The notes below the pieces were generated by a model. That model saw only the letters and a list, made by a program, of their open reading frames with translations. It was not told where the DNA came from and searched no databases. A stretch of DNA of 64,000 nucleotides from positions 6,383,001 to 6,447,000 of the forward strand of contig OY811983.1 of assembly GCA_963681505.1 (NCBI GenBank), read 5' to 3'. Position numbers and translations under genes: made by a program. Positions 5,214 through 61,802 of the stretch are shown in pieces; position 1 is the first letter of the stretch, and each line of letters opens with the position of its first letter. This DNA comes from Eunapius fragilis. Lineage: Eukaryota > Porifera > Demospongiae > Spongillida > Spongillidae.

Positions 5214-5846
5214 TCAACACACTTTTCCAATGTAACGAGTTCTTGGGTATGTAGCTTGAAGCTGTGGCCACTGAACTATTATGCAGTCCGCTATATAGTA
5301 CAGAATTCTCGCCGACAAAGACAAGTGTTCCACTCTACAAATGCTTTCCACGTAACATATTTTGATTTTCTTGACTCCAAAAAATGCGAACAAGTAGGCG
5401 CAAAAGCACACGGGAATACACGTTCCAGGACCATTACAGAGCACGAGATCGGGCCATGTACGAAGAACAAGTGGCAAGGAGGACATCAGTGCGATGAGGG
5501 TTGAATACACGCTAGTGATGTAGCTTTGAAGGACCTCGCGGGCTCGTGGTATCCACTCGACAGCTGCTGTCCCGCCTTTGGAAGCCTCAAACGCTTCAAC
5601 CTTTTCCAAACTCATTTTATCTGTTTGTCCAAGGACATACACTCGAGGGCGGTAACGATCAACATTCAATCCACTCAATAACCGTAGCATCTCTGTTGTA
5701 TGCCCACCTGAGCCCATGACAATAAGCGTCTTGCACGGGGACGTCCGAACCCTAGGTGGCAGCTTTCCATTTGCTGATGATAGCTGAATAAATCTTATAA
5801 GACACACTATTAAGATGCCGACCCCGATGGTGATAACGCCCACCAT
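5214..5846 (-). CDS. ALG14: ALG14, membrane-anchor subunit of UDP-GlcNAc transferase
   Basis: Single exon of 210 codons, full length for the family (about 200-220). An N-terminal membrane segment (MVGVITIGVGILIVCLIRF) is followed by the Alg14 motif VMGSGGHTTEMLRLL, then RPRVYVLGQTDK, a second hydrophobic stretch, CNGPGTCIPVC and the CYVESICRVEHLSLS segment, ending WPQLQATYPRTRYIGKVC. ALG14 recruits catalytic ALG13 to the ER membrane to add the second GlcNAc to dolichol-PP-GlcNAc in N-glycan assembly. The start at 5846 is fixed by the hydrophobic anchor. Only 34 bp separate this ATG from that of divergent PSMB7. The Tudor gene starts 80 bp downstream on the same strand. Confidence 0.97.
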   Translation of the reverse strand: MVGVITIGVGILIVCLIRFIQLSSANGKLPPRVRTSPCKTLIVMGSGGHTTEMLRLLSGLNVDRYRPRVYVLGQTDKMSLEKVEAFEASKGGTAAVEWIPRAREVLQSYITSVYSTLIALMSSLPLVLRTWPDLVLCNGPGTCIPVCFCAYLFAFFGVKKIKICYVESICRVEHLSLSARILYYIADCIIVQWPQLQATYPRTRYIGKVC

Positions 5847-5880
5847 CGCCAGTGCGCTTTATTAAGAAACCGCTGACAAA
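5847..5880. promoter_or_regulatory. 34-bp gap between divergent ALG14 and PSMB7 start codons
   Basis: The two start codons face each other with 34 bp between them, so 5' UTRs and core promoters must overlap each other or the coding sequences. No TATA box is visible. Shared initiation is inferred from geometry only. Confidence 0.6.
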
Positions 5881-23347: not shown

Positions 23348-24997
23348 ATGAGCGAGGTACCATTGAAGTTCACTATCATAGCAAAGTGTTCTGTTACTAA
23401 GGCGCGCGTTGCCAAGATGGTATTGTCGCACCATGCTGTGGACACGCCGGTTTTTATGCCAGTAGGCACCCAAGGTACCCTCAAAGGAATGACTCCAAAG
23501 CAATTGGAAGAGATGGACTGTCAAATTATGCTTGGAAACGCCTACCACTTGGGTAACAGACCGGTAAGAGGCATTGTGCTTCTGCTTTTCTTTCACTCAC
23601 ATTTCCTAAAAACCAGGGATGTGGAATACTTGAGAAAGTTGGTGGACTGCATAAATTCATGGACTGGAACAGAGGCCTGCTTACGGTAAAAATTGTGTAT
23701 TCTGGATTTCATTTTAACTCTGTTTATAGGATAGTGGCGGTTTTCAAATGGTGTCCCTTTTGAAGCTGGCAGAAATAACGGAGGTGAACGGTGTAGTCAT
23801 ATATTGTATTGAGGACTTAAAAGGGTTATGGTTGCTGTAGGAAGGTGTCAAGTTTCAGTCCCCACATGATGGGAGTGAGATGTTGCTGACACCCGAGCAC
23901 TCCATTGCCATCCAGAACACGATTGGTGCTGACATCATCATGCAACTGGATGATGTTGTGCACAGCACTGTCACTGGAGCCAGGGTGGAGGAGGCTATGT
24001 GGAGAACTATAAGATGGCTGGACAGGTACGTGCAGTGCTGCCATTGCAGCATTCCCTCTAACATGACGGTGTTGTGGTGACACCTTGAACATCACAGGTG
24101 CATAGCAGCCCATAAAAACAAGGGTACCCAAAGTCTATTTGCAATTGTTCAAGGTGGCTTACAAATCGAACTTAGAAAGAAGTGCCTTGATGGTAAGAAA
24201 TTCTTTTAACGAATACAGGTAACTATTAATTGTTGTAGCCTTGATGCAGCGGGATATGCCTGGTTACGCAATTGGGGGGCTTAGTGGTGGAGAAGAGAAG
24301 GATATCTTCTGGAGGATGGTCAATATCTGTACAGATATGTTGCCAAACGAGAAGCCACGTTACCTCATGGGAGTAGGGTAAGATCTAGTGCCCAGACCTG
24401 TGTTATTGTTCTCCCATATATGGCATTACACTGTTGCTAGATTTGCTGTGGACCTGGTAGTATGCAGTGCCCTGGGTGTGGATATGTATGACTGTGTCTT
24501 CCCTACAAGAACTGCTGTGAGTTTTATTTTACCTAAAAGAAAATAATAATAACGTATTTTATGATCCCTTTTGCTTCTCTAGCGGTTTGGTACTGCCCTT
24601 GTACCGTGGGGACAACTCAACCTCAAATCTAAGGAATTTGCGGCGGACTTTAACCCCATCGATCCGACCTGTCAGTGCAGCACCTGTAGACTGTACAGCA
24701 GATCGGCTTTGCATACGCTGTTGGTACAGGGGGAGCCGACGGCCTGCAACCTCATGACTGTTCATAACATCCATTATCAGGTAGACTAAACTGTGTAAAT
24801 GTAAATGTAAATGTATGTGTTGCCACAATAACCAACAGCTGGCTCTAATGAAGGAATTGCGTAAAAGCATCCTGGAGCAAAAGTTTCCACAGTTCATTCA
24901 AGAATTTATGGACTTGCAGTATCCTGAGCGTAACTACGAACCATGGGTAGTCAACGCGCTGGCATCTGTAAATGTACACCTTAGAAGTACGCCATAG
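23348..24997 (+). CDS. QTRT1: QTRT1, catalytic subunit of queuine tRNA-ribosyltransferase
   Basis: About 400 residues over about ten exons. [71 protein letters not shown] (first catalytic Asp in DSGGFQ), [85 protein letters not shown] (nucleophilic Asp in YDCVFPTR), then [18 protein letters not shown] with the C-x-C-x2-C zinc site and the later His (MTVHNIHYQ). It ends [11 protein letters not shown] 24997. It exchanges guanine-34 for queuine in tRNAs with GUN anticodons, as a dimer with QTRT2. All catalytic and zinc residues are visible. Confidence 0.97.
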
Positions 24998-25079
24998 AAT
25001 TATTTATTCATTGTATTGTGCATTTTCACGTGATGAGGGCGTTTCTAAGGTAACGGATGCAACGCCTCCAAACATAGCA

Positions 25080-28000
25080 ATGGGGTGTGGAGCTTCGCGG
25101 TCCGCTCGAAGTAAGTTTTAACAGACGCATTGCCTGGAAATTAAGAATTAGCGAATGGGTGTTCCTGGAAATTAAGAATTAGCGAATGGATGTTTCGTAG
25201 GCCCAACTAAGGTGGTATAAGTAATCATGTTTGCTCGCCATAATACACAGACGTACAGATCCCAACGCCAGATTTGCAGAAAGAAGCTTCTAATACAGTT
25301 CAGATTGCACCAGTAAGTTGATACGTAGCTAAACCGTGCAGCGGTGAGCCATACGTGTTCGTATACCTGCAGCCCGCACATGGGAGCAATGAACTAGATA
25401 AAACGGCCGCGGGGATTCCGCCGATCATGAAAGATGCATCGAAACTGAATAGTGTCAGTGACGAAGCGCGAAAAGCTAATGATGAGGTAGATGGTCCTCG
25501 CCATACTTCCAATTCGAAGGATGAACCCAAAAATGGCGAGACACCCGCACAGGACAACAAAGCACCACTCCCAAAGGTTGACAAAGCTCCACCTCCAAAG
25601 GATGACAAAGCTCCACCGCCAAAGGATGACAAAGCTCCACCTCCAAAGGATCCAAAGGATGACAAAGCTCCACCCCCAAAGGAAGACAAAGCTCCACCTC
25701 CAATGGATGAGAAAGCTCCACCTCCAAAGGACGACAAAGTTCCACCTCCAAAGGAAGACAAAGCTCCACCTCCAATGGATGAGAAAGCTCCACCTCCAAA
25801 GGACGACAAAGCTCCACCTCCAAAGGACGAGAAAGTTCCACCTCCAAAGGACGAGAAAGCTCCACCTCGAATAGATGAGAAAGCTCCACCCCCAAAGGAT
25901 GACAAAGCTCCACCTCCAAAGGATGAGAAAGCTCCACCTCCAAAGGACGAGAAAGCTCCACCTCCAAAGGACGAGAAAGCTCCACCTCGAATAGATGAGA
26001 AAGCTCCACCCCCAAAGGATGACAAAGCTCCACCTCCAAAGGATGACAAAGCTCCACCTCCAAAGGATGAGAAAGCTCCACCTCCAAAGGACGAGAAAGC
26101 TCCACCTCGAATAGATGAGAAAGCTCCACCCCCAAAGGATGAGAAAGCTCTACCCCCAAAGGATGAGAAAGCTCCACCTCCAAAGGATGAGAAAACTCCA
26201 CCCCCAAAGGATGAGAAAGCTCCACCTCCAAAGGATGACAAAGTTCCACCCCCAAAGGATGACAAAGCTCCACCTCCAAAGGATGACAAAGTTCCACCCT
26301 CAAAGGATGAGAAAGCTCCATCCCCAAAGCATGACAAAGCTCCACCCCCAAAGGATGACAAAGCTCCACCCTCAAAGGATGACAAAGCTCCACCCCCAAA
26401 GGATGACAAAGCTCCACCTCCAAAGGATGACAAAGCTCCACCCTCAAAGGATGAGAAAGCTCCACCTCCAAAGGATGAGAAAGCTCCACCCCCAAAGGAT
26501 GAGAAAGCTCCACCTCCAAAGGATGACAAAGCTCCACCTCCGAAGGATGACAAAGGTCCACCCCCAAAGGATGACAAAGTTCCACCCCCAAAGGATGACA
26601 AAGCTCCACCCCCAAAGGACGACAAAGCTCCACCTCTGAAGGATGAGAAAGCTCCACCCCCAAAGGATGACAAAGCTCCACCCCCAAAGGATGACAAAGC
26701 TCCAGCCCCAATGGATGAGACAGCTCCACCTCCAAAGGATGACAAAGCTCCACCTCCAAAGGATGACAAAGCTCCACCTCCAAAGGACGACAAAGCTCCA
26801 CCTCCAAAGGATGAGAAAGCTCCACCCTCAAAGGATGAAAAGATGTCACTCCCAAAGGATGAGAAAGCTCCACCTCCAATGGACAACAAAGCTCCACCCC
26901 CAAAGGATGAGACAGCTCCACCTCCAAAGGATGACAAAGCTCCACCCCCAAAGGATGACAAAGTTCCACCTCCAAAGGATGACAAAGCTCCACCTCCAAA
27001 GGATGAGAAAGCTCCACCTCCAAAGGATGACAAAGTTCCACCTCCAAAGGATGACAAAGCTCCACCTCCAAAGGATGAGAAAGCTCCACCTCCAAAGGAT
27101 GACAAAGCTCCACCTTCAAAGGACGACAAAGCTCCACCTCCAAAGGATGAGAAAGCTCCACCCTCAAAGGATGAAAAGATGTCACTCCCAAAGGATGAGA
27201 AAGCTCCACCTCCAATGGACAACAAAGCTCCAGCCCCAAAGGATGAGAAAGCTCCACCTCCAAAGGATGAGAAAGCTCCACCTCCAAAGGATGAAAAAGC
27301 TCCACCTCCAAAGGATGAGAAAGCTCCACCCCCAAAGGATGACAAAGCTCCACCTTCAAAGGACGACAAAGCTCCACCTCCAAAGGACGACAAAGCTCCA
27401 CCTCCAAAGGATGAAAAGATCTCTCCTCCAAAAGATGACAAAGCTCCACCTCCAATGAATGAGAAAGTTCCACCCCCAATGGATGACAAAGCTTCACCTC
27501 CAAAGGATGAAAAAGCTCCACCTCCAAAGGACGAGAAAGCTCCACCCCCAACGGATGAAAAAGTTCCACCTCCAAAGGACGACAAAGCTTCACCTCCAAA
27601 GGACGACAAAGCTCCACCCCCAAAGGATGAAAAAGTTCCAACTCCAAAGGACGACAAAGCTTCACCTCCAAAGGACGACAAAGCTCCACCTCCAAAGGAT
27701 GAAAAGATCTCTCCTCCAAAAGATGACAAAGCTCCACCTCCAATGAATGAGAAAGTTCCACCCCCAATGGACGACAAAGCTTCACCTCCAAAGGATGAAA
27801 AAGCTCCACCTCCAAAGGACGAGAAAGCTCCACCTCCAAAGGATGACAAAGCTCCACCTCTAAAGGATGACAAAGCTCCACCTCCAAAGGATGACAAAGC
27901 TCCACCTCCAAAGGACGACAAAGCTCCACCTCCAAAGGATGAGAAAGCTCCATCTCCAAAGGATGACAAAGCTCCACTCCCAAAGGATGACAAAGCTCCA

Positions 28001-31000
28001 CTCCCAAAGGATGACAAAGCTCCACTCTCAAAGGATGACAAAGCTCCACCCCCAAAGGACGACAAAGCTCCACCCCCAAAGGATGAGAAAGCTCCACCTC
28101 CAAAGGATGAGAAAGCTCCACCTCCAAAGGACGACAAAGCTCTACCTCCAAAAGGTGAAAAGATCTCTCCTCTAAAAGATGACAAAGCTCCACCCCCAAA
28201 GGATGAGACAGTTCCACCTCCAAAGGATGACAAAGCTCCACCTCCAAAGGAGGACAAAGCTCCACCTCCAAAGGAGGACAAAGCTCCACCTCCAAAGGAT
28301 GACAAAGCTCCACCTCCAAAGGACGACGAAGCTCCACCCACAAAGGATGACAAAGCTCCACCTCCAAAGGATGACAAAGCTCCACCTCCAAAGGATGACA
28401 AAGCTCCACACCTAAAGGATGACAAAGCTCCACACCTAAAGGATGACAAAGCTCCACCTCCAAAGGATGAGAAAGCTCCACCCCCACAGGACAACAAAGC
28501 TCCACCTCCAAAGGATGAGAAAGCTCCACCCCCAAAGGATGACAAAGCTCCACCCCCAAATGATGACAAAGCTCCTCCCTTAAAGGATGACAAAGCTCCA
28601 CCCCCAAAGGATGACAAAGCTCCACCTCCAAAGGATGAGAAAGCTCCACCTCCAAAGGACGAGAAAGCTCCACCCCCCAAGGACGAGAAAGCTCCACCTC
28701 CAAAGGATGAGAAAGCTCCATCTCCAAAGGACGAGAAAGCTCCACCCCCCAAGGACGAGAAAGCTCCACCTCCAAAGGATGACAAAGCTCCACCCCCAAA
28801 GGATGAGAAAGCTCCACCTCCAAAGGACGACAAAGCTCCACCCCCAAAGGACGACAAAGCTCCACCCCCAAAGGATGAGAAAGCTCCACCACCAAAGGAT
28901 GAGAAAGCTCTACCTCCAAAGGATGGGAAAGCTCCACCCCCCAAGGATGAGAAAGCTCCACCTCCAAAGGACGACAATGCTCCACCCCCAAAGGATGAGA
29001 AAGCTCCACCTCCAAAGGATGGGAAAGCTGATAATCGAGACCCAGCTACCAAAGATGCCCATCCTGCATCTAGTGTAATGACCAAAAGTATTGATTCCAA
29101 GCATAAGACTATTGACAACTTAAAATCAAGTTCCACCACAAGCATTGGTAAAGCTCATACTCGTGATGGATTGAAAGCTGGTTCTCAAACTCACCTTCCT
29201 ACAAAATCCAGTGACAAGGGCAGCACACATAATCTTTCTTCTAAAGTGCTATCTAGCAGTCGGGATCAATTACAGGGTGTGAGTCAAGGGCCATTAAAAA
29301 AGGCATCATCCCAGAGCCGCGAGAAACTGGCTGATAAACATAAGGACCAATCAAAGAAATCAGAATCTGTGGATGTAAAAACAACAGAAGTGGTTAAGGA
29401 AGGGTTGAAGTCCAATAACCCTGTGGATGCAACCCCTCGCCCAAAGTCTGCAAAGTCAGATTCACAAAAACCTGACAAACACCCTGAATCAATTAAGACT
29501 GGTAACACTGCACCACAGACAGATGTTGTCAAGGATGAAAGCACATCAGCTGCCCCTAAGGATGAAGTGAAAGCACATCCTAAGGAGGCTGCCCCTAAGG
29601 AAGAAGTGAAAGCACATCCTACGGAGGAGAAAGCTGCTGCCCCTAAGGAAGAAGTGAAAGCGCATCCTAAGGAGGCTGCCCCTAAGGAAGAAGTGAAAGC
29701 ACATCCTAAGGAGGAGAAAGCTGCTGCCCCTAAGGAAGAAGTGAAAGCGCATCCTAAGGAGGCTGCCCCTAAGGAAGAAGTGAAAGCACATCCTAAGGAG
29801 GAGAAAGCTGCTGCCCCTAAGGAAGAAGTGAAAGCGCATCCTAAGGAGGCTGCCCCTAAGGATGAAGTGAAAGCGCATCCTAAGGAGGAGAAAGCTGCTG
29901 CCCCTAAGGAAGAAGTGAAAGCGCACCCTAAGGAGGCTGCCCCTAAGGAAGAAGTGAAAGCACATCCTAAGGAGGCTGCCCCTAAGGAAGAAGTGAAAGC
30001 ACATCCTAAGGAGGAGAAAGCTGCTGCCCCTAAGGAAGAAGTGAAAGCGCATCCTAAGGAGGCTGCCCCTAAGGAAGAAGTGAAAGCACATCCTAAGGAG
30101 GCTGCCCCTAAGGAAGAAGTGAAAACACATCCTAAGGAGGAGAAAGCTGCTGCCCCTAAGGAAGAAGTGAAAGCGCATCCTAAGGAGGCTGCCCCTAAGG
30201 AAGAAGTGAAAGCACATCCTAAGGAGGCTGCCCCTAAGGAAGAAGTGAAAGCACATCCTAAGGAGGAGAAAGTTGCTGCCCCTAAGGAAGAAGTGAAAGC
30301 ACATCCTAAGGAGGAGAAAGCTGCTGCCCCAAAGGAAGAAGTGAAAGCACATCCTAAGGAGGCTGCCCCTAAGGAAGAAGTGAAAGCGCATCCTAAGGAG
30401 GCTGCCCCTAAGGAAGAAGTGAAAGCACATCCTAAGGAGGCTGCCCCTAAGGAAGAAGTGAAAGCACATCCTAAGGAGGCTGCCCCTAAGGAAGAAGTGA
30501 AAGCGCATCCTAAGGAGGCTGCCCCTAAGGAAGAAGTGAAAGTGCATCCTAAGGAGGAGAAAATTGCTGCCCCTAAGGAAGAAGTGAAAGCGCATCCTAC
30601 GGAGGCTGCCCCTAAGGAAGAAGTGAAAGCGCATCCTAAGGAGGCTGCCCCTAAGGAAGAAGTGAAAGCACATCCTAAGGAGGAGAAAGCTAAAAGTGAA
30701 AAAGATGAGCCAAAAGCAAATAGCTCAGTAGATATAACCCAAAAGGCTGAGAAGCGCCCAAACTCTGCCAAGACAGGTTCACAAAAAACTGAAAAGGTCG
30801 CTGAACCAACCAAAGATAGTGCAGGCCACACCCTTCATACACATAGAGTTGTTGCATTATCTGACTCTAAAAATAACCTGCATGGTTCGAGGGGGAAGCT
30901 GTCATCATCAAAACAAGATCTCTCTTCAGAAGATCGCAAGCTCCCTCAGCAATCAGGTTCAAAGGTGAGCCTTCACACCTCCTCCCAGGTGAAGCATGCA

Positions 31001-31309
31001 GCATCGAGTACAAGTCTTCACAAGACAGACTCTAAGACCACCACCACCACCACCACCACCGTGCACAATGAGAAGACATCCAAAGCACCTTCTGGCTCAA
31101 CATCACACCTTGAAGCATCTGACTCCAAGAGCAACCTTCAGAAGGCAAAGCCCCAACTTCATGGGTCAAAGCCCAACCTTGCTCAAATGGACTCAAAGGG
31201 CGCATCCAAAACTGCTCACAAGGGTAGTGATTCCTCTGTTATGGCAGAAGCACCTGTTGCTACAGCAGAGAAGACAGCTATACCCCACGAAGTGGCTCAG
31301 TCAGCGTAG
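25080..31309 (+). CDS. Giant predicted N-myristoylated repeat protein (about 2000 aa), unknown function
   Basis: Exon 1 (25080-25110) encodes MGCGASRSAR, a good N-myristoylation signal (Gly2, Ser6) with Cys3 available for palmitoylation. Exon 2 (25251-25312) gives VQIPTPDLQKEASNTVQIAP; exon 3 (25373-31309) holds the rest in one frame. Layout: acidic-basic linker (residues 30-90), about 140 octapeptides of consensus DDKAPPPK (variants E for D, V/S for A, M for K), a short Ser-rich linker, a second block of about 28 EEVKAHPKEAAPK / EEVKAHPKEEKAAAPK units, then a Lys/Ser tail with repeated S-K-x-[ND]-L words (SKNNL, SKQDL, SKSNL, SKPNL). It has no globular domain, no Cys after exon 1 and no membrane segment. 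By composition it resembles titin PEVK springs and lipid-anchored disordered proteins such as BASP1/GAP43. I recognise no orthologue. Confidence 0.85.
25580..29030 (+). repeat. 24-bp coding minisatellite, (DDKAPPPK)n, about 140 copies
   Basis: Unit gatgacaaagctccacctccaaag. Higher-order duplications are visible (for example the block with KMSLPKDEKAPPPMDNKAP occurs twice, near 26830 and 27170; the KISPPKDDKAPPPMNEKVP block occurs twice, near 27410 and 27705). Changes are mostly substitutions that keep the frame. Several other frames are also open; they are shadows. Confidence 0.95.
29545..30690 (+). repeat. 39/48-bp coding minisatellite, (EEVKAHPKEAAPK)n
   Basis: Alternating 39-bp and 48-bp units differing by insertion of EKA-type residues, about 28 copies in all. 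Higher-order dimers and trimers of the two unit types are evident. Same reading frame as the first block, unrelated unit. Confidence 0.93.
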
Positions 31310-31707: not shown

Positions 31708-34700
31708 TTATACTATTACACACCTGTCATCTGTTAGGCCCTGTATTTCCAACCACTGATTCCATTCTCGATCTGTACTTTCAATGCCCAATTCAGTAAG
31801 AGGCTTACTAAAGTCTTCGGTCATGCGTTTCAATTCACGTAAATGTCTCTCCTTCCTTATGTCATATGACTTCACACCTGATGGCCCTGCCTCTTCATTA
31901 ATGACGGCATAGTCAGAAACACCTCCTGCGCCGTGATGGTTGTTGCCATGGCAACGATCATCAGGAATGTTTGGCAGAGGCCGGCCCTCTGGTCTCATGA
32001 GAGATGGATGGGTGGCACCAGTAGTTGGGAAAGGAAGCACATTAGAGTTTGTTGAATGTGGTGCGTCCATAAAGCCTCCAAGCTTATACAATGAATGTCC
32101 AGCTTCTTGTTCAAACAGCACTTGCATCATATTTTGGTCGTTGTACAGGTTATCAGCACCGCTCTCAAACGTGTTTATTGCTCTGTGATTTTCCAAGATA
32201 AACGCTGCAGGGGCGGCGCTCCAAGCTCCTCCTGATAAAGATGGAATTGTTTTGTGCCAACTGCGTGGCCCAGAAGCCACATGCGGAGTCGGCTTTCTTC
32301 CCCTCCGTACCATAGGGCTATCCTCCACCTCAAGGTTCTCAAGGCTTTGGTTGACTGAACGGCTTTTGGACTTTCTATGGCTTTTGTGCTTCATAATCGA
32401 AGTGATATGTCCTGTTGCCATGGCTACTGCTTTCTGATCACCCAATTGTTGGAAGATTTCAACCAGCTGTTGAAAGGAGAGGTGTATTATACAAGTAAAT
32501 AAAAACATTCTCTACGAGAAAGTTGGTGGGATATAGGATTTGATTATGACATTGGTGGTGTAAAAAGCAAGGAAACAAGGTCTTATCAGAAGGGAAAATG
32601 TCATAGTCCTATATTTAGCACATTTCTAGGGCATGTGTTGTTTGTGTGCTAAATATAGGACTATGACATTTTCCCTTCTGATAAGACCTTGTTTCCTTGC
32701 TTTTTACACCACCAATGTCATAATCAAATCCTATATCCCACCAACTTTCTCGTAGAGAATGTTTTTATTTACTTGTTTTCTTTATTTTTTTCATACCCAT
32801 TTAATTATACAAGACATTAGTCTCGTACCCAGACCGTCTATGACGTAAGCGATTATCGCTGTAAACAGAATAGTCACTACGTCCATACGTATGGACGTAG
32901 TGATTATACTGTTTACAGCGATAATCGCTTACGTCATAGACGGTCTGGGTACGAGACTAACAAGACATAGGAGGCTGATAGTCGATTGTTTATCAAAGTA
33001 TTATATTATATAAAAGCGAGTCCTCCAGCCGATTCTGAAGCTATTGGTGAAATTTTCATCGCTTAGAAATGTTCCTGTCCTGAGTTATGCGTTGCCAAGA
33101 AGAAGAAGGAGAAGACGACCCGCCCCTTGTTCCGAGACTGGGTACGAGGACGGGCAGTACACTCTGGTTCTCAACAACCACGCGGTTCAGCGACATGAAA
33201 CAAAAACGAAACTACTCATTTTTGACTTCTAGATCGATTGCTAAAACAAGCTACACGATCCGATCGTCGGGAGTGTTGTTACAGACGGGTCGCGTTTTTT
33301 AATGACATTCATAGTCGTGGTCAAATCCTATATGGAAGTTTCTAACGAAACTTCCGATACCTTACATGCCTTCACACCTCTCTCTCTTTTACACAACTCC
33401 ATGTGATGCCCACCTCCTTTCACCTTGCTCAGCACACAATGATGGTCGCTCACAGGGGTGATGGAGTCTTGGCCCACCATGGAGGCTATACTTTTACCAG
33501 TTCATTAATTATTCATGCATAATGTAGGTCATATACCAAATTATTCATAACTGCATGGTTGGCTGCCACACTCCTTTACCCCTTCTGTTGCCACTGGCTC
33601 ACCTTGGTATAATACAACTGAGCCTTCTTAATGTCTCCACTATCTTCGCTCAAGGATGCCAGTGTTGCTAGTGCCCTGGCTTGACCACAGAGGTCCTTCT
33701 GTTGCACCACAATGCTGAAGTACTGTGATTTTAAAGTTAAGAAGTCTATTGAGTATGTTGCCATAGCAACTCACCAAAGTGTACCATTCGATGGCTTTTT
33801 GTGTCCGTCCCAGCAGTTCACAGGTTGCTCCAAGGTTCAGCAGTGATGCCACCTCACTGGCAGTATTGTCCATTGACCTGGAGAGCTCCAAACTCTGAAA
33901 AATAAGTACATGTTTATATAAGGACCTTTGAAGTCTGAGAGGCCAGTCTTTAATTGCCATAAACTGAACATGTGAGGTGGGGCATGTTTTGGCATGTTGT
34001 ACATAATTTATCCCTGAAGCTGAATGTTGGGCAAGCCAGCTGTCATTGTGTTTACAAAAATTAGTGTAACAGTGCCCAGGGTTTATAGTTTTAGGAGTTA
34101 AGTGAATGACATGTGCTATGCAGTCAAGTCAAAGACATGTGCTATGCAGTCAAGTCAAAGACATGTGCCGGGCAGCCAAGTGCTAGGTAGCCAAGTGAAG
34201 GGCATGTGGTGGAGGCTGGGTCATGCACTACTGCAATGTGTGTACATTGGGGTGATGCGATGACATAGCTCTGTCCCTTCCATCTTGCTATCTTGCTCAA
34301 CTACCACGCTTAGTAATAGTTGTGTTTATTAATATAGTGTATTATTAATAAAAATCGGTAGTATAATATTAATCACCTAAACGAATGCATGAGACGAAGC
34401 TAATTGAGATGACCCACCGTTGCATAGTACTCCAATGCTTCCTCGTACTTGCGAGTAGCGCGGCAGCAGTTTCCCAGGTTGCACAGGGCGTAGCACTCCG
34501 AACTCAAGTCACTGGTCATGCGAACCATCTCCAATCTCTGTGTGTGTGGGGGGGGGGGGGGGGGGGGGGGGGGCGGCCACTTAAAATCCATGCACCAAGC
34601 CGTAAAGGTTACCTTGCCGTGACAGAACATTGCCTGTGGATACTGTCGGGCCATTTCGTGACACGATCCCAGATTCCCGTATGCTCTTGCCTGCTTCTCG

Positions 34701-35545
34701 CTGAATGTTATGAGTGCATGCATTTCAATCCTTGGGAAAGCCAAAACATACCGGAATCTACGGACTTACACATCTCCGTATTGCTCTACGATCTCCAGGT
34801 GTTGCTCGAAGTATCCGATAGCTCTCTTTAGGTTTGCTTCAGCGTTTTCCATTGATATGCTATTATCGCGCCGCGCCGCCTCGTACGCACGTGCGGCCAG
34901 AGTCTTGGAAAGCACTCCTAGATTGCTTAACGCCTTAGCAATACCCATATTATCCTGGAGTACACGGGAATTTTCCAGGTACTGTAGAAAGCAGCGACCA
35001 GCGAGCTTTAGCATGCCTAACTTCATGTAAGATATGCCAAGGTTGCATTCGGCCTTAGTGATGCCTTCGAAGTCGTTCAACTCCCTGCAAAAGGCAAGAT
35101 GGTGCAGAAAGCATATGGACGCCTTTCTGTACTGGCTAAGTGAGAGATGGGCGTTCCCTAAAAGGCGCCATAGCAGGGTCAGAAGTGAAGAGTCTGCACT
35201 GGAAGTTAACAGCGCCAGTTCTATGCAGTATATTGCCTCGACGTGCTTCCCTCTTTTAAGTAACCCGTCGATTTCTTCCAATTGTTTAGATACTTCTGCT
35301 CTCAGTCCGAGGTGGTGGGCGTGTCTGATGTACTCGCTTAGGGGGCTGGAGTGCCTCATGTGTGACGTCGACGTGTGCACGCTTCGCACGGGAGAGTTGG
35401 GGGGAAAGCTGACTTCGCTGGTTCTGGGAGACATGGGCACGTGGTGTAAATTATTTCTAACCTCCACCACTACACCACCTCGTCTTCGTACTTCTTCGTC
35501 ATGGACACTCTCAACCAGCGGATTGGAAGAAATGAAATCGGCCAT
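31708..35545 (-). CDS. TPR-repeat scaffold protein, TTC24-like (tentative)
   Basis: ATG 35545 (MADFISSNPLVESVHDEEVR); the frame is open a further 105 bp upstream but without ATG. A Ser/Pro-rich N-terminus precedes TPR-type helices: LRAEVSKQLEEIDGLLKRGK, AIYCIELALL, LLWRLLGNAHLSLSQYRKAS, ITKAECNLGISYMKLGMLKL, GIAKALSNLGVL, then on later exons ARAYGNLGSCHEMARQYPQA, CYALCNLGNCCRATRKYEEA, VASLLNLGATCELLGRTQKA and ALATLASLSEDSGDIKKAQL. The C-terminal 260 residues (exon about 31708-32473) are low-complexity, then helical (ERHLRELKRMTEDFSKPLTE), ending GLTDDRCVIV, a CaaX-like or PDZ-ligand-like tail. TPR runs of this LGN-like kind usually bind peptide partners. The orthologue is not certain. The intron 32474-33600 is inflated by mobile elements. 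Confidence 0.75.
32491..32776. mobile_element. 286-bp palindromic element, copy 1
   Basis: Starts acaagtaaataaaaacattc and ends with its exact inverse. The arms, about 128 nt each, are identical by eye, with a loop of about 30 nt around 32625-32645. It lies about 20 nt from the 3' splice site of the last exon of the TPR gene. It is related to copy 2 at 58637-58913. Confidence 0.88.
32818..32959. mobile_element. 142-bp foldback element with 9-bp target duplication
   Basis: Terminal repeat tagtctcgtacccagaccgt and its inverse. The whole element is one near-perfect palindrome (about 70-nt arms, a few mismatches). It is flanked by acaagacat at 32809-32817 and again at 32960-32968, a clean 9-bp target duplication. 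It is inserted between palindromic copy 1 and its downstream partner sequence. Confidence 0.9.
32969..33345. other. Non-coding partner segment of palindromic element copy 1
   Basis: Similar by eye to 59395-59690 downstream of copy 2 (shared words: gagttat...gagaagaagaag, tagctacac, ggtcaaatcctatat vs ggtcaattcctatat). It is probably part of the same larger transposable unit. Short open frames here are not genes. Confidence 0.55.
34547..34574. repeat. Poly-G tract (poly-C in the transcript) next to a 3' splice site
   Basis: About 27 G on the plus strand. In the minus-strand TPR transcript it is a C-run followed by acacacag and the exon starting AGATTGGAGATG. Confidence 0.85.
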
Positions 35546-35863
35546 ATTAGTACGCCCTTGAACTTTTGTGCTTTGGAAGTAAGCTTCTCTTAAATACCTA
35601 CTTGTACGTTTGCTTTTCTCTAGAGGGTTCGCCTTTTCCCCTGACGGCAAATGCCGGTTTGTTCCATATCATGAATCAACTATGGATTAAATAAGTGGAA
35701 CGGATCACTGAGCACAACTGTGCGTTGTAATGCACAAGTAACGTACACAACACTAGATGACATGGCCCACGACAAAAGTATAGATCTAGCTATGGATTAG
35801 CCTACCGGCCTGATCTAAATCAGCAAACACGCTCGTAATATTGTAATTCCGGGTGACCAAAAA
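35546..35863. promoter_or_regulatory. Divergent TPR-gene / TMCO1 promoter interval
   Basis: 318 bp between ATGs; the proximal 105 bp may be 5' UTR of the TPR gene. No recognisable motif. Confidence 0.4.
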
Positions 35864-37996: not shown

Positions 37997-38408
37997 CGCG
38001 CCTACTTACGTCACCGTTCAGAACCGGGAAATCTTCGTAAACTATTGGTAGTGCTATGTTTTGTTGACGTGTCCAGTGGTATTGTTCGATACCTTGCCGT
38101 GCATTTCAAATGGCTTTGATCCCGCTGTACCCTTGGAGGTGTGAGGCGAGCTGACGCAGTTGGAACCTACATATTTTAATGGCCGTTGAAGCCATGCTGT
38201 GGTCGTCATAGACTCATAGACTACACACCCAAACAGCTAAAGGGAAGCCGAAGCAACGTGTATGCAATGCTCATCTTCTGTACTAGCAGCTACTGTGATG
38301 TATACCAAAATATACGCATAAATAAAAAAGTAGAGGTGGTTGTGGTCGCCTGAATCGTCAGTTTATTTTGATGCCATCCGGATCGCGGAACAAATACACG
38401 ATATATTA
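37997..38408. promoter_or_regulatory. Divergent NCS / Kir promoter interval
   Basis: 412 bp between start codons. There is AT-rich sequence with ataaataaaaaag just before the Kir reading frame. I see nothing else of note. Confidence 0.4.
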
Positions 38409-39500
38409 ATGCCGCGCATTTCCTTTAGTTACGTCATGAATGTTTCGTCGCGACCAGCTCAGCCCTTTTGTGCCGACATTCAGCAAAGTGCGGATTGGGG
38501 GGAGTGTTCCATGGGAGATACGGTCCACTATTCTAAGTACGTCCCTGCGGTGCTTTTGGGCGGAACGACGCATGAGGTCACTCCAAAGTTGCTGAAACGA
38601 GTATCAGGTAGGTCTCAGCTCAGCTATGTAGGCCTTCAAACCAAGAACATCGGATTTGTTAGAGATATTTACACAACAGTAATTAACGCCAAGTGGTGGG
38701 TAATTTTAGTGCTCTTCACACTTGCCTACCTCGTTTCGTGGTTCGTGTTCGGAGGTCTTTGGTACGCTGCCAACCGAAACAGCAACTTCACCTGTCTGGC
38801 CCAGGTGAACTCCTACTCAGCCGCATTTCTGTTCTCGGTGGAGGTCCAGGCAACTATTGGATTTGGGAACAAGTACATTGAGAGCAATTGCGTACAAGGT
38901 ATACTGCTTCTCGTCCTTCAGTCACTTCTCTCTATATTGATCACTTCCATATTTGGCGGGCTCGTGTATGCTAAGGTGGTGCGGCCGAGGAACAGAAGAA
39001 AAACGTTGCTTTTCAGCGAAAAGGCTGTACTATATGAAAAAAATGGAGGAAAGGTATTCCAATTTCGGGTGGCAAACCTGCGACATGACGGTGTTGTGGA
39101 GTGTCATGTAAGACTGCAGCTCTACATGCCGCGTTTTGTTGATGGCGGATATAACCTAGAACAGTATGACTTAGACGTGGGATACAGCAGCGGTACGGAC
39201 AGGCTGTTCCTGTTAACCCCAGTGGTCATTACCCATCACATTACACCAGCTAGTCCTCTTTACAACCTTACTCCACACAACCTGGCTGAGATGGACTTTG
39301 AAATAATAGTAGTCCTAGAGGGAGCTGTTGAAGCAACAGGACTGACTGCCCAGGCACTGTGGTCATACACTAATAATGACATTGTGTTTGACCACATGTT
39401 TAAATCACTTGTCAGTAGAGAGCGAAAATGGATTGTTAACTTCTCTCATTTTAATGAAACCATACCTGTATCATTAGCACATGAATTACCTCATGTTTGA
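38409..39500 (+). CDS. Inward-rectifier potassium channel (Kir), intronless
   Basis: 363 codons in one exon; ATG 38409 is the first in frame. M1 about residues 90-120 (WWVILVLFTLAYLVSWFVFG), pore with Cys pair (NFTCLAQVN...SNCVQG) and filter QATIGFGNKY, M2 GILLLVLQSLLSILITSIFG, then the PIP2-binding basic strip PRNRRKTLLFS and the cytoplasmic immunoglobulin-like domain (VFQFRVANLRHDGVVECHVR ... VVITHHITPASPL ... EIIVVLEGAVEATG, ALWSYTNNDIVFDHMF). The filter is TIGFG, as in Kir6, rather than TIGYG. The arginine after it is Lys, and the M2 rectification-controller site (Asp172 in Kir2.1) reads Thr. All Kir blocks are intact. Sponge Kir channels are known; subfamily is not assignable. Confidence 0.95.
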   Translation: MPRISFSYVMNVSSRPAQPFCADIQQSADWGECSMGDTVHYSKYVPAVLLGGTTHEVTPKLLKRVSGRSQLSYVGLQTKNIGFVRDIYTTVINAKWWVILVLFTLAYLVSWFVFGGLWYAANRNSNFTCLAQVNSYSAAFLFSVEVQATIGFGNKYIESNCVQGILLLVLQSLLSILITSIFGGLVYAKVVRPRNRRKTLLFSEKAVLYEKNGGKVFQFRVANLRHDGVVECHVRLQLYMPRFVDGGYNLEQYDLDVGYSSGTDRLFLLTPVVITHHITPASPLYNLTPHNLAEMDFEIIVVLEGAVEATGLTAQALWSYTNNDIVFDHMFKSLVSRERKWIVNFSHFNETIPVSLAHELPHV

Positions 39501-39636: not shown

Positions 39637-42600
39637 TTACACCCTAATAAGAAGGTCCCAGGTACTCTTCCACTGTCGAGACATTATCTGGTCACGACTA
39701 AGGGCTGGGTACCCGTAGGTGAAAGGGAAGAAGATGATGAATGAGAGCGTACACCCCAATACGAGCGCGCCAGTCAGCACATAGTAAGTGTACCAGAGCA
39801 GGAGGGCAAACCTGAGGAGGAGGAGGAGGAAGGGATAATCAAGGCGTGGTCAGTGGGGTGGCTCCACCCACTTTTTGCTGGCTAGCAGACTGCTCCAAGT
39901 CAGCAGATGCTCGCATAACACCGCCATCAGCATGAACTTGAAGGGGAGAGCAGGGAGGTAGTGATGGAGGAAGAGGACACGTGAGAGCAGGAAATAGGGA
40001 GCGTAGTGGACCAGCCAGCCAACAAACAAGAGTGCACCACACGTCCACAACTGCATGAAGTCAGCTGCTGGTGATAAGGGGGGGGGAAGGGGGGGGGGGG
40101 GGCACCATTACCTATAAGCAGAGGACCAATGGCGGCATCTCTCTCACCTTGGGGAATATCAAATATCATCCGTTGCCTTCTAAGAAGATAGAAGGCAGTC
40201 ACAGCAAAGAACACCACCAGACACAAACTGCTGCACCACCAAAGAATAGGGTTTCCAATGAGAGTGATTTGGGCCTAAGAAAGTGTGATATGTGTGATGT
40301 GTGTGTGTGTGTTCACATGTCTGGATCTGGGGACAAGGGTACTCACATTGTTCTTTTCATCAAGCCAATATGGAAGGGTCTTTCCTATTAGCGGCCATGA
40401 TTGAGGGGCTGCCCCAAACTGATGGCTACCAAGATTACCATGTGCCGTTACCATGTGATACTGCAAAAGATGTAATCACATCATGTGCAACTCTGTGATG
40501 AGTTGCAGAAAAATACACATCCTTTCCCACCCACCATGGGACACACCCTTCCCCACCACCATGGGACAAACCCCTTCCCCACCCACCATGGGACAAACCC
40601 CTTCCCCACCCACCTGGGACACACCCTTCCCCACCCACCATGGGACACAACCCTTCCCCGCCCACCGTGGGACACACCCCTTCCCCACCCACCATGGGAC
40701 ACAACCCTTCCCCACCACCATGGGACAAACCCCTTCCCCTTCCCCACCCACCATGGGACAAACCCCTTCCCCACCCACCATGGGACACAACCCTTCCCCG
40801 CCCACCGTGGGACACACCCCTTCCCCACCCACCATGGGACACAACCCTTCCCCACCACCATGGGACACACCCCTTCCCCACCCACCATGGGACACACACC
40901 CTTCCCGCCCACCGTGGGACACACCCCTTCCCCACCCACCATGGGACAAACCCTTCCCCGCCCACAATGGGACAAACCCTTCCCTGCCACCATGGGACAA
41001 ACCCTTCCCTGCCACCATGGGACACACCCCTTCCCCGCCCACCATGGGACACTCCCCTTCCCGCCCACCTTCCCCGCCCACCAAGGGACCCTGTGTACCT
41101 GTAACTCAATCAGTTTCTCCCAGAACATTATCTGCTCATTGCTCTTCTCTTCTTCAGAGGAATACTTTTCCACTAGTGCTGCCAGTGATGGAATGGGAAA
41201 AATGATGTCATAAGAGGAATGAGAACATAATGATGTCATGAGGAATGAGAACTAATGTCATAAGAGGATGAGAACATAATGATGTCATAAGAGGAATGAG
41301 AACATAATGATGTCATAAGAGGAATGAGAACATAATGATGTCATAAGAGGAATGAGAACATAATGATGTCATATGTAATCTTGAGGAATGAGAACACAAT
41401 GTTACATGACCATGTTCCAATGGAGACCTGGGGGTGGCCCCATACACTTCCTCCTCTACAGGCAACATACTTTATCTAGACCCCACCCCCACCTATACCC
41501 AGGCTCCACCCCCACCTATACCCAGGCTCCACCCCCACCTATACCCAGGCCCCACCCCTACCTTTTTTGAGCTCTTCCTCCTCTGTCTGATTAGCACTCA
41601 TAGGAGGAGGAGTGACGGAGTCAATAATCCATGTGGTATGCCCTCCTTCTACTGCCCTGTCTGTCACCACCTGTCCTCACAGAGCTAGCTAGCTAGCAGC
41701 AAGGCTGGTGTGGTCACTTACCTCATACTGCTGGGCACCCCATTCAGGGAGGCGCTTCCCTGTTGACTGCAGGGACATATTTTATATCAATGTTACCTTC
41801 TCGACCCTAATTAATGCTCTCTTACTCCTAATGCCTGCTTAGATTGCTCATGGATAAGCTTCAACTTGAGAGGTTGTTCTGGGGACCAAAAGAGCAAGTC
41901 CCCAGGCCCACTTGAGATAACGTCCTGTAGAACATGCACGTGTTATAAGCAGCACACCCTATTTAATGCCTACCACCCTCCAGTGAAGGTAAGGAACAAA
42001 CTGCGCAGAGTAGTTGATGTACGCTGCTACCTCCTGGTTCACAGGCGTTAGGGGTGCGGCCACGTCGTGACTAATAACGATGACATCGTTAGAATGGTGT
42101 GCTGACCAACAGCACTGTTACAGACCTGTTGAGCAGTTTACTGGACGTCACGTGCACCAGCTCAATAGTGTCGTTGCTCTTTATGGGAGACGTGTCGTTC
42201 CCCACGGCTGCATCGTTGGGTCTAGGTGTGCACGGTACCACAATTGAATGTGGCCACACCCACCCACACTTACTCTCCAGGCCTCCTCACCGCCCACACA
42301 TTGTTGGTGTCTTTGAACTCGTAGCAGGTGACCTGTTGTTGGTAGCTGGAGCCCCGCCCATCGGGGTACTTGAGCGGGTAGAGAAGGGGGTGGGAGTGGA
42401 GCCAACAGGAGAGATCAGAGGAACGAAGGGTCAGCCGTGTCCCATACCGTAGCACTGAAGGGTCAGAGGGGTGGAGTTAAGGGGAGGAGGGAGGATGGAA
42501 GGAGGGAGGAGGGAGGAAGGAGTTAGGGAGCTATGGGTGTCACAAGTAGCATCGAACAACTAACGTGTGGAGTTGGGAAGGATCTCTATTGGAGGGTGGG

Positions 42601-44867
42601 ACACTTGTGTGCTTTGGAGAGAGTTCCTGAAGGCTCTGGAGACAAACGCGTCCCCAGGACCAGACTGGGTCAGAAGGAGGAGGTGGATGTAGAAGAGGCC
42701 TATATTGCAGAGCACTGGGATCCCTAGAAGATAGATGCCTCGCAGAAGGAAGTGAAGAGACAGGTCCACCTTAGAAGGAGGAGGGAGGGGAAGGGAAGGA
42801 GAAGGGGAGGAGGGAGAAGAGGAGGGAGGAGGGAGGGGAGGAGGGAGGGGAGGAGGGAGAAAGAAGGGGAGGAGGGAGGGAAGGGGAGGAGGGAGGGGAA
42901 GGGGAGGAGGGGAGAGGAGGGAAGGGTTCGATGGAGGTTTCATGCCCAGGTGAAGGCACTAACCAGTGGTATTTCAATGTCACCCATGAGCTGCCAGAGG
43001 TCACACACAGTGAGTATGCCAATGAAGGCTAATGCAAACAGACCGGTGTACTTCACCCTATACAGGTGTACAGGACATCACAAAGTAACACACCACCACA
43101 TGTCCAGTAATTTATTCCATCCGTCTATTCTTACCCCAGCAGACAACCCAAGGCAACTCCAGTCACAACAAGCCACTTATGCCAGGTCTCAGAAAACGGG
43201 CTGCAAAATGAGAAGAACTATTTCGATTGCAAATATCTTATGCTAAGTTGATGGTCAGTGATACACAACGTGTATTATAAACCTACTGACTGCGACAATG
43301 ATAGAACTTCAAGTAACAAAGAATAGAGAGATACGTCAGAAAGATGACAAAAGAATCGAGCATGATGACACGGCTTTGAATGATTAAGGAGTTGTCTACA
43401 CAGAAAGGGGGAGGATGAGGAGGGGGTGGGGAGGAGGAAGGGAAGAGGTAGAGGAGAGGTAGGGGAGGGAGGAAGAAAAGGGGAGGGAGGGGGAGAAGGG
43501 GATGACAAAGGGAGCGAGGAGGATGATAGAGGAGGAGGCAACATTGCAAGATGATGACAATGCACTCCAATTACAAGTACTCACCTAAGATAGTAAATAT
43601 TCCTGCAAGTAGAGCAACACGTGAAGAAAATCCCATTTCAATCACTATCTAAAGCCAGGGAGAGGACATTGGGAGGGTGAGGGGAGGGAGGGCATTGGGA
43701 GGGTGAGGGTGAGGGGAGGGAAGGCATTGGGAGGGTGAGGGGAGGGAGGGCATTGGGAGGGTGAGGGGAGGGAGGGCATTGGGAGGGTGAGGGGAGGGAG
43801 GCATTGGGAGGGTGAGGGGAGTGAAGGCATTGGGAGGGTGAGGGGAGGGAGGGCATTGGGAGGGTGAGGGGAGGGAGGGCATTGGGAGGGTGAGGGGAGG
43901 GAGGGCATTGGGAAGGTGAGGGGAGGGAGGGCATTGGGAGGTGAGGGAAGAGAGGGCATTGGGAGGGTGAGGGGAGGGAGGGCATTGGGAGGGTGAGGGT
44001 GAGGGGAGGGGGTGAAGGGGAGGGAGGGCATTGGGAGGGTGAGGGTGAGGGGAGGGAGGGGAAGGAGTTGAAGGGGAGGGAGGGTATTGGATGTAAGAGA
44101 AAGTTCTGCGCACATGGTGCCTCATCTCCCTTACCTGGTACACACACGGTATCAACAAACTGCCTGCTGTTGCAGACAGGGCTCGCATCATGACATAAGG
44201 CACATTTGGTGGAAAGTCTGGGCACGAGGTGCAATAAATAGGTTTGGGAAATATGGTAATGACTTACCCACTCCAATGTTTGGAAACAGAAAGGATCCGT
44301 CATACCCACAGAGGTAACCTTTGTTATGTAAACCAACGACCTCACCTGACACAGCACATGTACAATACACGTATCTCCCTCACCAATAAGAGCGAATAGC
44401 AATTTTCCAAGAGGTGGGTGAACGTCAAAGAAAAACTGTCCATTAAGATAGTAGCTAGCGAACTTTCCGAAATGGACTTCATCAAACCTAACGCAGAGGA
44501 AAGTGTTGTAAGCGAGACACTACCTACCGCGGCACTCACACAACGTGAGACGGGAAGTCCAAACGCCAAAATCTCGTCACGAATCCTACCAATACCATGA
44601 TAACCCATGATGCGTCGACCTCCACTTTATACGATAGCCATGGTTTTCCCGTGTATCGAGGAAACCATGTCACGACGTCTCTCTCATAAGTTGTTCTATT
44701 CGGCTGTAATGGTAGTTCGCAAGGGTCGGTATTGGATGCAACCACTGGGCTTTGCGGTGATTGCTCTCCATCCTAAAGGTGATGCGGTTATGTCAATGAC
44801 CATTAGATGTTTCCTAATTGCTTACATCCTTCTTTATTCGCCTTCTAACTGACGTTTCCTCGGACAT
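39637..44867 (-). CDS. POMT1: POMT1, protein O-mannosyltransferase (GT39)
   Basis: Exon 1 (44826-44867) gives [14 protein letters not shown]; a phase-0 intron leads to exon 2 at 44772. Then [40 protein letters not shown] (catalytic Asp-Glu pair), [98 protein letters not shown], then MIR repeats with [20 protein letters not shown] and [52 protein letters not shown], and the last exon ending [14 protein letters not shown] (TAA 39637-39639). The MIR text and DIPQ block point to POMT1 rather than POMT2. It acts as an ER heterodimer with POMT2 transferring mannose from Dol-P-Man, for example to dystroglycan. At least five introns carry different minisatellites. The gap to the POLR1H start is 68 bp. 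Confidence 0.93.
40525..41085. repeat. ~27-bp minisatellite, POMT1 intron
   Basis: About 20 copies of ccaccatgggacacaccccttcc with length variants (acaacc, acaaacc). Multiple open frames arise from it; none is coding. It lies between exons at about 40475-40500 and about 41095-41205. Confidence 0.95.
41215..41372. repeat. ~28-bp tandem repeat, POMT1 intron
   Basis: Five to six copies of gatgtcataagaggaatgagaacataat. It lies just 5' on the plus strand of a second array. Confidence 0.9.
41478..41562. repeat. ~28-bp tandem repeat, POMT1 intron
   Basis: Four copies of ccacccccacctatacccaggct. Intronic. Confidence 0.85.
42776..42928. repeat. G/A purine tract, POMT1 intron
   Basis: Irregular ggaggagggaggggaagg words on the plus strand. 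Non-coding. Confidence 0.85.
43400..43545. repeat. G/A purine tract, POMT1 intron
   Basis: gggaggaggaaggggagaggtagagg-type sequence, similar in composition to the tract at 42776 but not in unit. Confidence 0.8.
43648..44092. repeat. 26-27-bp G-rich minisatellite, POMT1 intron
   Basis: About 15 copies of gcattgggagggtgaggggagggagg. Each unit has four G-runs of three or more, so the plus strand could form G-quadruplexes. Confidence 0.93.
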
Positions 44868-52100: not shown

Positions 52101-53007
52101 ATCACAAGGCTTTGCTGAAGATGGCTACAATCAACCTCTATACCCCTCTCAGCATAGCCATGTAGAAGAATATGAATTGGGTACAGTACAGTCACAACCT
52201 CTCAGTTCTATACAAGAGCAGTTATACCAGCCTGTGGATGGTTCTACGCAAGAAGAGGAGCTGTACCAGGATGGCTCTACACAAGAGATGTTGCACCAAC
52301 ATGGGGATGGCTCTACACTAGAGACGTTGCACCAACATGGGGATGGCTCTACACAAGAGATGTTGCACCAACATGGGGATGGCTCTATACAAGAGACGTT
52401 GCACCAACATGGGGATGGCTCTGCACAAGAGACGTTGCACCAACATGGGGATGGCTCTATACAAGAGACGTTGCACCAACATGGGGATGGCTCTATACAA
52501 GAGACGTTGCACCAATATGGGGATGGCTCTGCACAAGAGATGTTGCACCAACATGGGGATGGCTCTTCACAAGATATGTTCCGCTCTACACAAGACATGT
52601 TCCAATCTACAGAAGATATGTTGTATCAGCATGGGGATGGCTCTACACAAGAGCAGTATGCAGATGAACCTCAGCATGACTTAACCCAAGAAATGCTTGG
52701 TAATCAAGTGACAAGTGACCCACTGGATGCCCCAGATAACAAACAATTGGAACACACAGACAGTTACTATCAGACGTTACTGACCCCACCCCCAGTGCCC
52801 CCACTTGCACCAACTGTGGATGGCAACAGTGTACAGGACATTCAAGATCCAGCCGCATTACCTATGGTACCCCTGCCTCATGTACCCGACCTGATTGATA
52901 GTGACACTGGTGCACCCCTTCCTATCAATTCTCTTCAGCTCTTCAGCTACACTGAGCCACCAACCACACTGTCTGCACTGAAGGCAGAGAAGCAACAAAC
53001 CCCATAA
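48623..53007 (+). CDS. Transmembrane channel-like protein (TMC family) with repetitive C-terminus
   Basis: ATG 48623 gives MATFLTDIAGDIDSGELAGS; then LENYEQAIDLASNPP... and FKAQPWPMEMK; then YKQNLSKYVDHLNRLDT. Hydrophobic segments follow: GVASFFVFLRWLCFLNITLA, FEYSVLFYGYYYGANMS, SLAYVMSIAGVFLASLLLLL, LRIITNIVILLLVAGSSYCI, VATVNFLFPWIFLIAELFEK, MFLLYLSSLYIVIISLLTVS. The TMC signature CWETAVGQAMYRL sits about two-thirds along, then LAVEIIGIVISDGVRWALVK, WLGILFCPLLPLVNILKLIV, FYFRAFAVYFF, and the last segments VLVPVIVIL and GICYSCALM. TMCs are ten-segment TMEM16-like membrane proteins; vertebrate TMC1/2 form the hair-cell mechanotransduction pore. The C-terminal exon (about 51930-53007) is hydrophilic with a 12-residue tandem repeat. 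Tail-to-tail with GNL1 at 59 bp. Confidence 0.93.
49043..49112. repeat. (GT)n microsatellite
   Basis: Long gt run with a gc interruption immediately after a TMC splice donor. Confidence 0.9.
49451..49478 (+). repeat. Poly-C polypyrimidine tract at a TMC 3' splice site
   Basis: About 23 C followed by attcag and the exon starting GTGCTAATCGG. A second case is at 50609-50640, where the C-run directly abuts ag before the exon starting TATGTTTCTCC. Confidence 0.85.
52265..52590 (+). repeat. 36-bp coding minisatellite (HQHGDGSxQE[TM]L) in TMC C-terminus
   Basis: Nine to ten copies of caacatggggatggctctacacaagagacgttgcac-type units, in frame, encoding a 12-residue repeat. The unit is preserved at protein level with T/I/A and T/M variation. 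Confidence 0.93.
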
Positions 53008-61737: not shown

Positions 61738-61802
61738 ACACGTTCTGGTTCTAATTTAATCGTCATAACGCGATTGCGCATGCGTGAAACCACATGTGAC
61801 AG
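61738..61802. promoter_or_regulatory. 65-bp bidirectional interval SNRNP35 / TDRD5-7
   Basis: Head-to-head ATGs 65 bp apart. It contains cgcgattgcgcatgcgtg, which includes the NRF1-like palindrome tgcgcatgcg at about 61775-61784. Confidence 0.55.

Follow-up and report, generated by a model that had tools for sequence, protein, structure and literature searches.

Two described systems are the nearest working analogues of the predicted gene from the freshwater sponge Eunapius fragilis that is the subject of this report: the titin PEVK region and the PEVK-rich segment of periaxin. By the features tested, the gene is a member of neither. In the account given in PMC6469411, the PEVK exons of titin code for about 70% Pro, Glu, Val and Lys. 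The PEVK-rich region of periaxin (L-PRX) is treated in the description given in PMC7072810 as polyampholytic and as a proposed molecular spacer, with no phosphorylation sites mapped in it and with the phosphorylated regions located elsewhere. According to PMC6478813, MARCKS, GAP43 and BASP1 share a basic effector domain; the N-terminal fatty-acylation consensus MGXXX[S/T] used below was taken from the same paper. A KxGS core of tau-type repeats is named in PMC4815063. The sponge gene lies on chromosome 13, in a stretch of 64,000 nucleotides (assembly GCA_963681505.1, contig OY811983.1, positions 6,383,001 to 6,447,000 of the forward strand), which is called the window and whose numbering is used throughout. 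Judged from its sequence, the gene would encode a membrane-anchored disordered tether composed of an anchor, entropic spacers and multivalent docking words, a reading to which we give slightly less than an even chance.

The gene model consists of three predicted exons, the third of which contains two repeat blocks:

25080..25110, + strand: exon 1, encoding MGCGASRSAR, with predicted N-myristoylation (Gly2, Ser6, Arg7) and S-acylation (Cys3)
25111..25250, + strand: intron 1, 140 nt, donor GTAAGT, with a 31-bp tandem duplication at 25133-25194
25251..25312, + strand: exon 2, 62 nt
25313..25372, + strand: intron 2, 60 nt, donor GTAAGT, with an in-frame TGA if read through
25373..31309, + strand: exon 3, 5937 nt, containing both repeat blocks
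25373..25552, + strand: N-terminal non-repeat part of exon 3, residues 32-91
25553..29023, + strand: block 1, 144 octads with the consensus DDKAPPPK, residues 92-1248
29024..29557, + strand: Ser/Lys-rich linker, residues 1249-1426 (178 residues), with four [GDSQ]SxxxL words within 29180-29329
29558..30691, + strand: block 2, 27 units of EEVKAHPK(EA/EEKA)APK, residues 1427-1804
30692..31309, + strand: tail and stop codon, residues 1805-2009 (205 residues), with seven [GDSQ]SxxxL words

The exons join to 6030 nt, which encode 2009 amino acids and one terminal stop in an unbroken frame (215.6 kDa, calculated pI 8.2). An earlier note, made from the sequence alone, had placed here one gene of about 2000 residues with its frame kept over 6 kb; its coordinates and frame were right. 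Since the 24-nt period of block 1 leaves several frames open, the length of the open reading frame (ORF) is by itself weak evidence. Good evidence for a gene comes from the 443 non-repeat codons of exon 3, which contain no stop in the claimed frame, and every one of the other five frames is interrupted in both linker and tail. Two antisense ORFs run across the octad array on the minus strand, one of 1284 codons (25300-29154, with SFGGGA-type repeats) and one of 1189 codons (25476-29045). The coding strand of the octads could be the antisense, specifying a Gly/Phe-rich protein of the SFGGGA type from the frame that is open from 29154 to 25300, and the variant pattern described below fits such a frame as well as it fits the sense frame. 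However, the antisense FGGGALSS frame, which has no stop in the octad array, meets five in the linker and nine in the tail, whereas the sense frame stays open through all 443 non-repeat codons and carries strong protein-level words in the tail. We regard an antisense gene as extremely improbable, and the antisense ORFs are probably by-products of the 24-nt period.

If the 5' end of the model were wrong, transcription or translation would start in exon 3, where the first Met is residue 50, and the product would lack the lipid anchor and be a disordered protein of the cytosol or nucleus. Two features are in keeping with this: the stop codon of the upstream gene (24995-24997) is separated from the ATG by only 82 bp, and the acceptor of intron 1 has a poor pyrimidine tract, as judged by eye. 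(Two segments of the upstream gene match queuine tRNA-ribosyltransferase, PF01702, with E values of 5e-20 and 2.6e-14; its last segment is without a match.) On the other side, the + strand of the window contains 20 copies of GTAAGT (0.31 per kb), and two of these sites fall within 25080-25380, where the model needs its donors; the frame closes through both introns, and the ATG has G at -3 and at +4. The start, MGCGASRS, fits the MGXXX[S/T] consensus and has in addition Cys3 and Arg7. The word MGCxx[ST] followed by Lys or Arg occurs once in the window, exactly at the predicted start at 25080. In the whole genome (218,937,333 bases in 24 contigs were covered by these and the following own-genome searches) a pattern built from the MGCGASRS start matched two places, the second of which, read by hand, is MGCGTWHS with Trp at position 6. 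A start in exon 3 is, on this evidence, distinctly unlikely. The N-terminus is predicted to be dual-acylated, with myristoyl on Gly2 and palmitoyl on Cys3. The earlier note had proposed such a dual-lipidation start from Gly2, Cys3 and Ser6, and the acylation-type pattern (MGXXXS, Cys3, Arg7) is indeed present, the modification itself being predicted only.

One further element lies directly upstream of the gene:

25041..25054, + strand: X-box-like site GTTTCTAAGGTAAC, 25 bp ahead of the start codon, not claimed to be functional

With this site, and with a weak match in the PDB between the octads and cilia and flagella associated protein 57 (E = 0.017), the product might be a ciliary or flagellar protein, whose double lipid targets it to the ciliary membrane and whose gene is activated in flagellated cells through an RFX site. 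The PDB match proved to be compositional (bias 31.8 bits). Five control loci were inspected, namely two tektin genes, one below-cut-off tektin-like match, IFT20 and BBS1; in none of them did the 1.5 kb lying 5' of the matched exon contain an X-box-like site, the real first exon being unlocated for three. A search for RIB43A as a further ciliary control had no hit, from which its absence cannot be concluded. X-box-like palindromes (GTHNYYNNRRNAAC) are over-represented in the window, with 23 matches on both strands, at 16 distinct places, against 6.14 expected, and none of 100 shuffles had as many; the places include 9678, 31306, 31942, 32414, 33757, 47523 and 59266. Both the lack of the site in the control genes and the frequency of the motif in the window led us to drop the ciliary reading as very improbable.

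The octad array consists of 144 units of 24 nt plus one in-frame 9-nt insertion. Exact copies of DDKAPPPK and DEKAPPPK make up 40 and 35 of the 144 octads, respectively, and no run of five or more identical successive units was found at any offset when higher-order repeats were looked for. The DNA pattern of the octad, with up to three mismatches allowed, had 132 matches genome-wide and 132 at 25559-28976 of the window, thus it is confined to this locus. Block 2 contains 17 units of 13 residues, nine of 16 residues and one truncated unit. The whole protein has one Cys and no Trp, Tyr or Phe. These counts agree closely with the earlier description of about 140 octads and about 28 EEVKAHPK units in the same frame, with no Cys, Trp or Tyr to speak of; both blocks lie within exon 3 in one frame. 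In PMC12616128 the assembly is reported as HiFi-based, of 218.91 Mb in 23 chromosomes plus a mitochondrial record, with a quality value (QV) of 60.4, but also with 802 gaps and with BUSCO completeness at 60%. In view of the last two figures the length of the octad array has to be taken with caution. The N-terminal part, the linker and the tail had no second copy in the genome. Linker and tail are not supported as copies of each other (local alignment score 78 against a mean of 71 for shuffles, of which 121 in 500 did as well), nor is the N-terminal part as a copy of the linker (165 of 500 as good) or of the tail (377 of 500).

The protein is a nearly balanced polyampholyte, 435 Lys and Arg standing against 428 Asp and Glu. 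Net charge is -2 in the N-terminal part, -9 in block 1, +10 in the linker, -2 in block 2 and +10 in the tail, and opposite charges are interspersed much more evenly than in shuffled sequences (charge-segregation index 0.0175; mean 0.063 and minimum 0.049 in 50 shuffles). Ser, Thr and Tyr together account for 2.3% of block 1 and 0.8% of block 2, compared with 26.4% of the linker and 28.8% of the tail. These figures suggest that the blocks are extended polyampholytes hardly switchable by kinases, lying between segments that kinases can switch. From composition and length, the whole chain would measure about 50 nm across when relaxed, with a contour length of about 720 nm.

The segments flanking block 2 contain recurring words. 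S-K-x-[ND]-L, which the earlier note had picked out in the tail, is present there four times (0.02 expected) and not at all in the linker; none of 5000 shuffles reached the tail count, so the recurrence is statistically significant. The wider form [GDSQ]S..[NDQSKH]L was found 11 times, four times in the linker and seven times in the tail (0.64 expected, 0 of 5000 shuffles), and the bare spacing S...L 14 times (3.67 expected, 0 of 5000). The neighbouring spacings S..L (2, with 3.64 expected) and S....L (4, with 3.65 expected) were at chance, and S.....L was moderately raised (8, with 3.66 expected, 86 of 5000 shuffles); it is Leu at the fourth position after Ser that is specifically enriched. 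In the tail, Leu pairs at a lag of seven residues numbered six (0.63 expected, 0 of 3000 shuffles) and formed two runs, of five and three Leu:

30860..30943, + strand: four tandem heptads, SDSKNNL HGSRGKL SSSKQDL SSEDRKL, with Leu at 1860, 1867, 1874, 1881 and 1888
31118..31180, + strand: three tandem heptads, SDSKSNL QKAKPQL HGSKPNL, with Leu at 1953, 1960 and 1967

The tail words are thus a third, diverged tandem repeat, a heptad array ending in Leu with the form x-[GDSQ]-S-[KR]-x-x-L. The linker words lie outside the heptad register. Since related words occur in the linker as well as in the tail, two word clusters flank block 2. The tail heptads are spelled with differing codons (judged by eye, unscored), so that the word pattern seems to be maintained at the protein level. 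A leucine zipper or helix was considered for the heptads and rejected: a single-sequence model of the tail was helix-free (mean predicted local distance difference test score, pLDDT, 52.3), which is weak evidence without an alignment. Regular expressions for SH3 class I and class II, EVH1, LC3-interacting region (LIR) and IQ motifs had no match, EB-type [ST]x[IL]P had two, and in two of the 11 words the Ser has a basic residue three or four positions before it, as in AMPK/MARK-type sites. The initial reading had noticed neither the balance of charge nor the heptad arrangement of the tail words nor the linker word cluster, all of which are new here.

Several observations weigh against the tether interpretation. 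The anchor and the words were read from the sequence of one species alone, the regular expressions for the words were partly shaped on the same data, and none of the known motifs tried accounts for the words. Differences of the octads from their consensus were silent in the sense frame in 117 of 284 cases (expected fraction 0.28), and the antisense FGGGALSS frame fits equally, with 120 of 284 synonymous (0.33 expected). Variants that change charge were 33 of 284 by count (0.32 expected); counted by type they were not depleted (14 of 43, 0.32 expected), and the deficit is weak, with a one-sided p of 0.035 for transitions and 0.052 for transversions. Amino acid changes that keep the charge were no rarer than silent ones (p = 0.39). 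Given the weak stratified tests and the antisense fit, the exact sequence of the spacer seems loosely constrained; the charge neutrality of the octads may be mildly kept.

The absence of purifying selection on same-charge changes and the weak charge-change deficit would also be expected if the gene encoded a loosely constrained disordered protein, maybe lipidated, of which only the ends matter and whose blocks, with little function in their length and sequence, lengthened by the usual in-frame expansion of minisatellites. In-frame repeat expansion is in itself ordinary, and the window is rich in tandem repeats, with 101 rows in Tandem Repeats Finder (TRF), overlapping rows counted. Other arrays also lie within open frames, such as 8.5 copies of 36 bp at 52269-52574 and 16.2 copies of 18 bp at 1350-1641 (both with 0% indels in TRF), and the near identity of the block 2 units suggests recent growth. 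In TRF, indels amount to 1% in the octad array and to 5, 8, 9 and 12% in the arrays at 40521-41069, 43662-44090, 41190-41373 and 55817-56290, respectively. Since other arrays with 0% indels exist (e.g. at 1011-1173), the low rate in the octads was not used as proof. Simple expansion is less easily reconciled with the net charge of all five parts, which stays within 10 of zero, with the thorough mixing of the charges, or with the near absence of Ser, Thr and Tyr from both blocks. These features are partly inherited from the founding unit, and for this reason they are not decisive. We consider expansion of blocks with little function possible but rather unlikely.

When the locus is compared with titin, the likeness lies in a disordered spacer rich in Pro, Lys, acidic residues and Ala and built of two motif types, which in titin are PPAK and poly-E. 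Pro, Glu, Val, Lys and Ala make up 74.8% of block 1 and 91.3% of block 2, in line with the PEVK-like composition claimed earlier. With Ala excluded the values are about 64% and 69%, so the blocks reach the titin figure of about 70% when Ala is counted. In contrast to the titin PEVK region, which is spread across more than 100 short exons, the sponge blocks lie in a single exon of 5937 nt; block 1 uses Asp where titin has Glu, and the protein has a predicted lipid anchor and no Pfam match over the cut-off. The last result means that no Ig/Fn3 giant surrounds the sponge repeats. Membership in the titin PEVK class was rejected, the organization into many short exons within a titin gene being absent. 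The sponge protein resembles periaxin in that its Ser, Thr and Tyr lie mainly in segments other than the blocks. It differs from periaxin in lacking an AHNAK2-like or other Pfam match, in its lipid-type start, and in its repeat units, which are octads and units of 13 or 16 residues where periaxin has pentapeptides.

Of the likeness to MARCKS, GAP43 and BASP1 drawn in the earlier note, one part was upheld and another failed. The N-terminal fatty-acid modification motif of these proteins is present in the sequence as MGCGASR, and an acylated N-terminus, only predicted in the sponge, is again followed by a disordered body rich in Lys, Ala, Pro and Glu. A basic effector domain, the part that binds acidic lipids and calmodulin, is absent: net charge reaches at most +5 per 25 residues, Phe, Trp and Tyr are missing, and the IQ expression had no match, so membership in this group was rejected. 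The sponge protein also differs in its length of about 2000 residues and in its tandem repeats. With tau, MAP2 and MAP4 it has in common a disordered projection ahead of a repeat-bearing C-terminus. K.GS occurs twice (residues 1299 and 1831), as does GS..N[IL] (1314 and 1962). The words KAGSQTHL, KGSTHNL and HGSKPNL resemble the KxGS core, perhaps with a likeness that extends beyond it, and this resemblance is a lead only. Unlike tau repeats, which are about 31 residues apart (PF00418 has 31 positions), the sponge words are spaced by seven. In the own genome PF00418 gave two below-cut-off places on other contigs (E = 1.07 and 7.9) and none at the locus, and it was absent from the hmmscan of the tail at E values up to 10, a profile of 31 positions having limited power. 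A tau-type repeat was accordingly rejected, and the microtubule-binding tail suggested earlier received no support from the profile, though some words resemble the KxGS core.

The earlier note had known of no described family with such a layout, and this agrees with the Pfam scan, which covered the third exon, extended by 17 codons of intron 2, as a whole and in parts and gave no match over the cut-off. The matches below it were set aside as chance or composition: IL31 in the linker (E = 0.02), TX13_rpt in block 2 (E = 0.031) and Sec8_N, Leu_zip and AIMA-like_N in the tail (E = 0.67 to 7.3). The same applies to three PDB chains matching 216 residues of block 1 (E = 0.017, 0.02 and 9.4); for the tail the PDB gave nothing at E values up to 10. 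Relatives of the tail were sought in viral contigs (26 pattern matches) and in prokaryote genomes (30 pattern matches), and none was confirmed in either collection, neither of which contains sponges. In a full-text literature search, whose scope excluded most subscription papers, neither the repeat strings nor, judging by titles, a sponge lipid-anchored disordered repeat protein was found described.

Outside the gene, two adjoining inverted repeats were found downstream, one at 32491-32776 (arms of 132 nt, 100% complementary, 22-nt gap) and one at 32817-32960 (arms of 72 nt, 97%, no gap); together, at 32491-32960, they look like foldback or miniature inverted-repeat transposable element (MITE)-type elements. 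Further downstream, on the minus strand, a tetratricopeptide repeat (TPR) exon at 34766-35668 is similar to G-protein-signaling modulator 2 (LGN/Pins; PDB, E = 6.3e-26). The window also encodes an inward rectifier potassium channel (38334-39500, + strand; PF01007, PF17655), Alg14 (5214-5858, - strand; PF08660) and an OST-HTH/LOTUS protein (61800-62405, + strand; PF12872).

For the membrane-anchored tether we propose the following mechanism. Acylation of MGCGASR on Gly2 and Cys3 would fix one end of the chain to the inner face of the membrane. The 144 octads, net-neutral, well mixed in charge and poor in phosphosites, would form a permanently extended entropic spacer. The x-[GDSQ]-S-x-x-x-L words may dock weakly and multivalently onto a cytoskeletal or scaffold partner, possibly under control by phosphorylation, and block 2, as another spacer, may determine how far apart the two docking clusters lie. 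In its most specific form, which we think unlikely as a whole, the protein would be a new animal cortical tether that combines a dual-acylated anchor with two polyampholyte springs of separate evolutionary origin and with a Ser/Lys/Leu heptad docking code for a putative cytoskeletal partner, with block 2 spacing the clusters.

If the cortical tether were real, it would represent an early-animal spring system built without titin-like Ig/Fn3 modules, and a membrane-anchored PEVK-like spring in an animal that has neither muscle nor neurons. Two unrelated repeats would have converged on one physical rule, that of zero net charge, well-mixed charges and few phosphosites. Since block length is expected to vary among individuals, a direct comparison of spring length with function would be feasible. 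The diverged heptad words would form the conserved, working end of the protein and could be used as bait for its partner.

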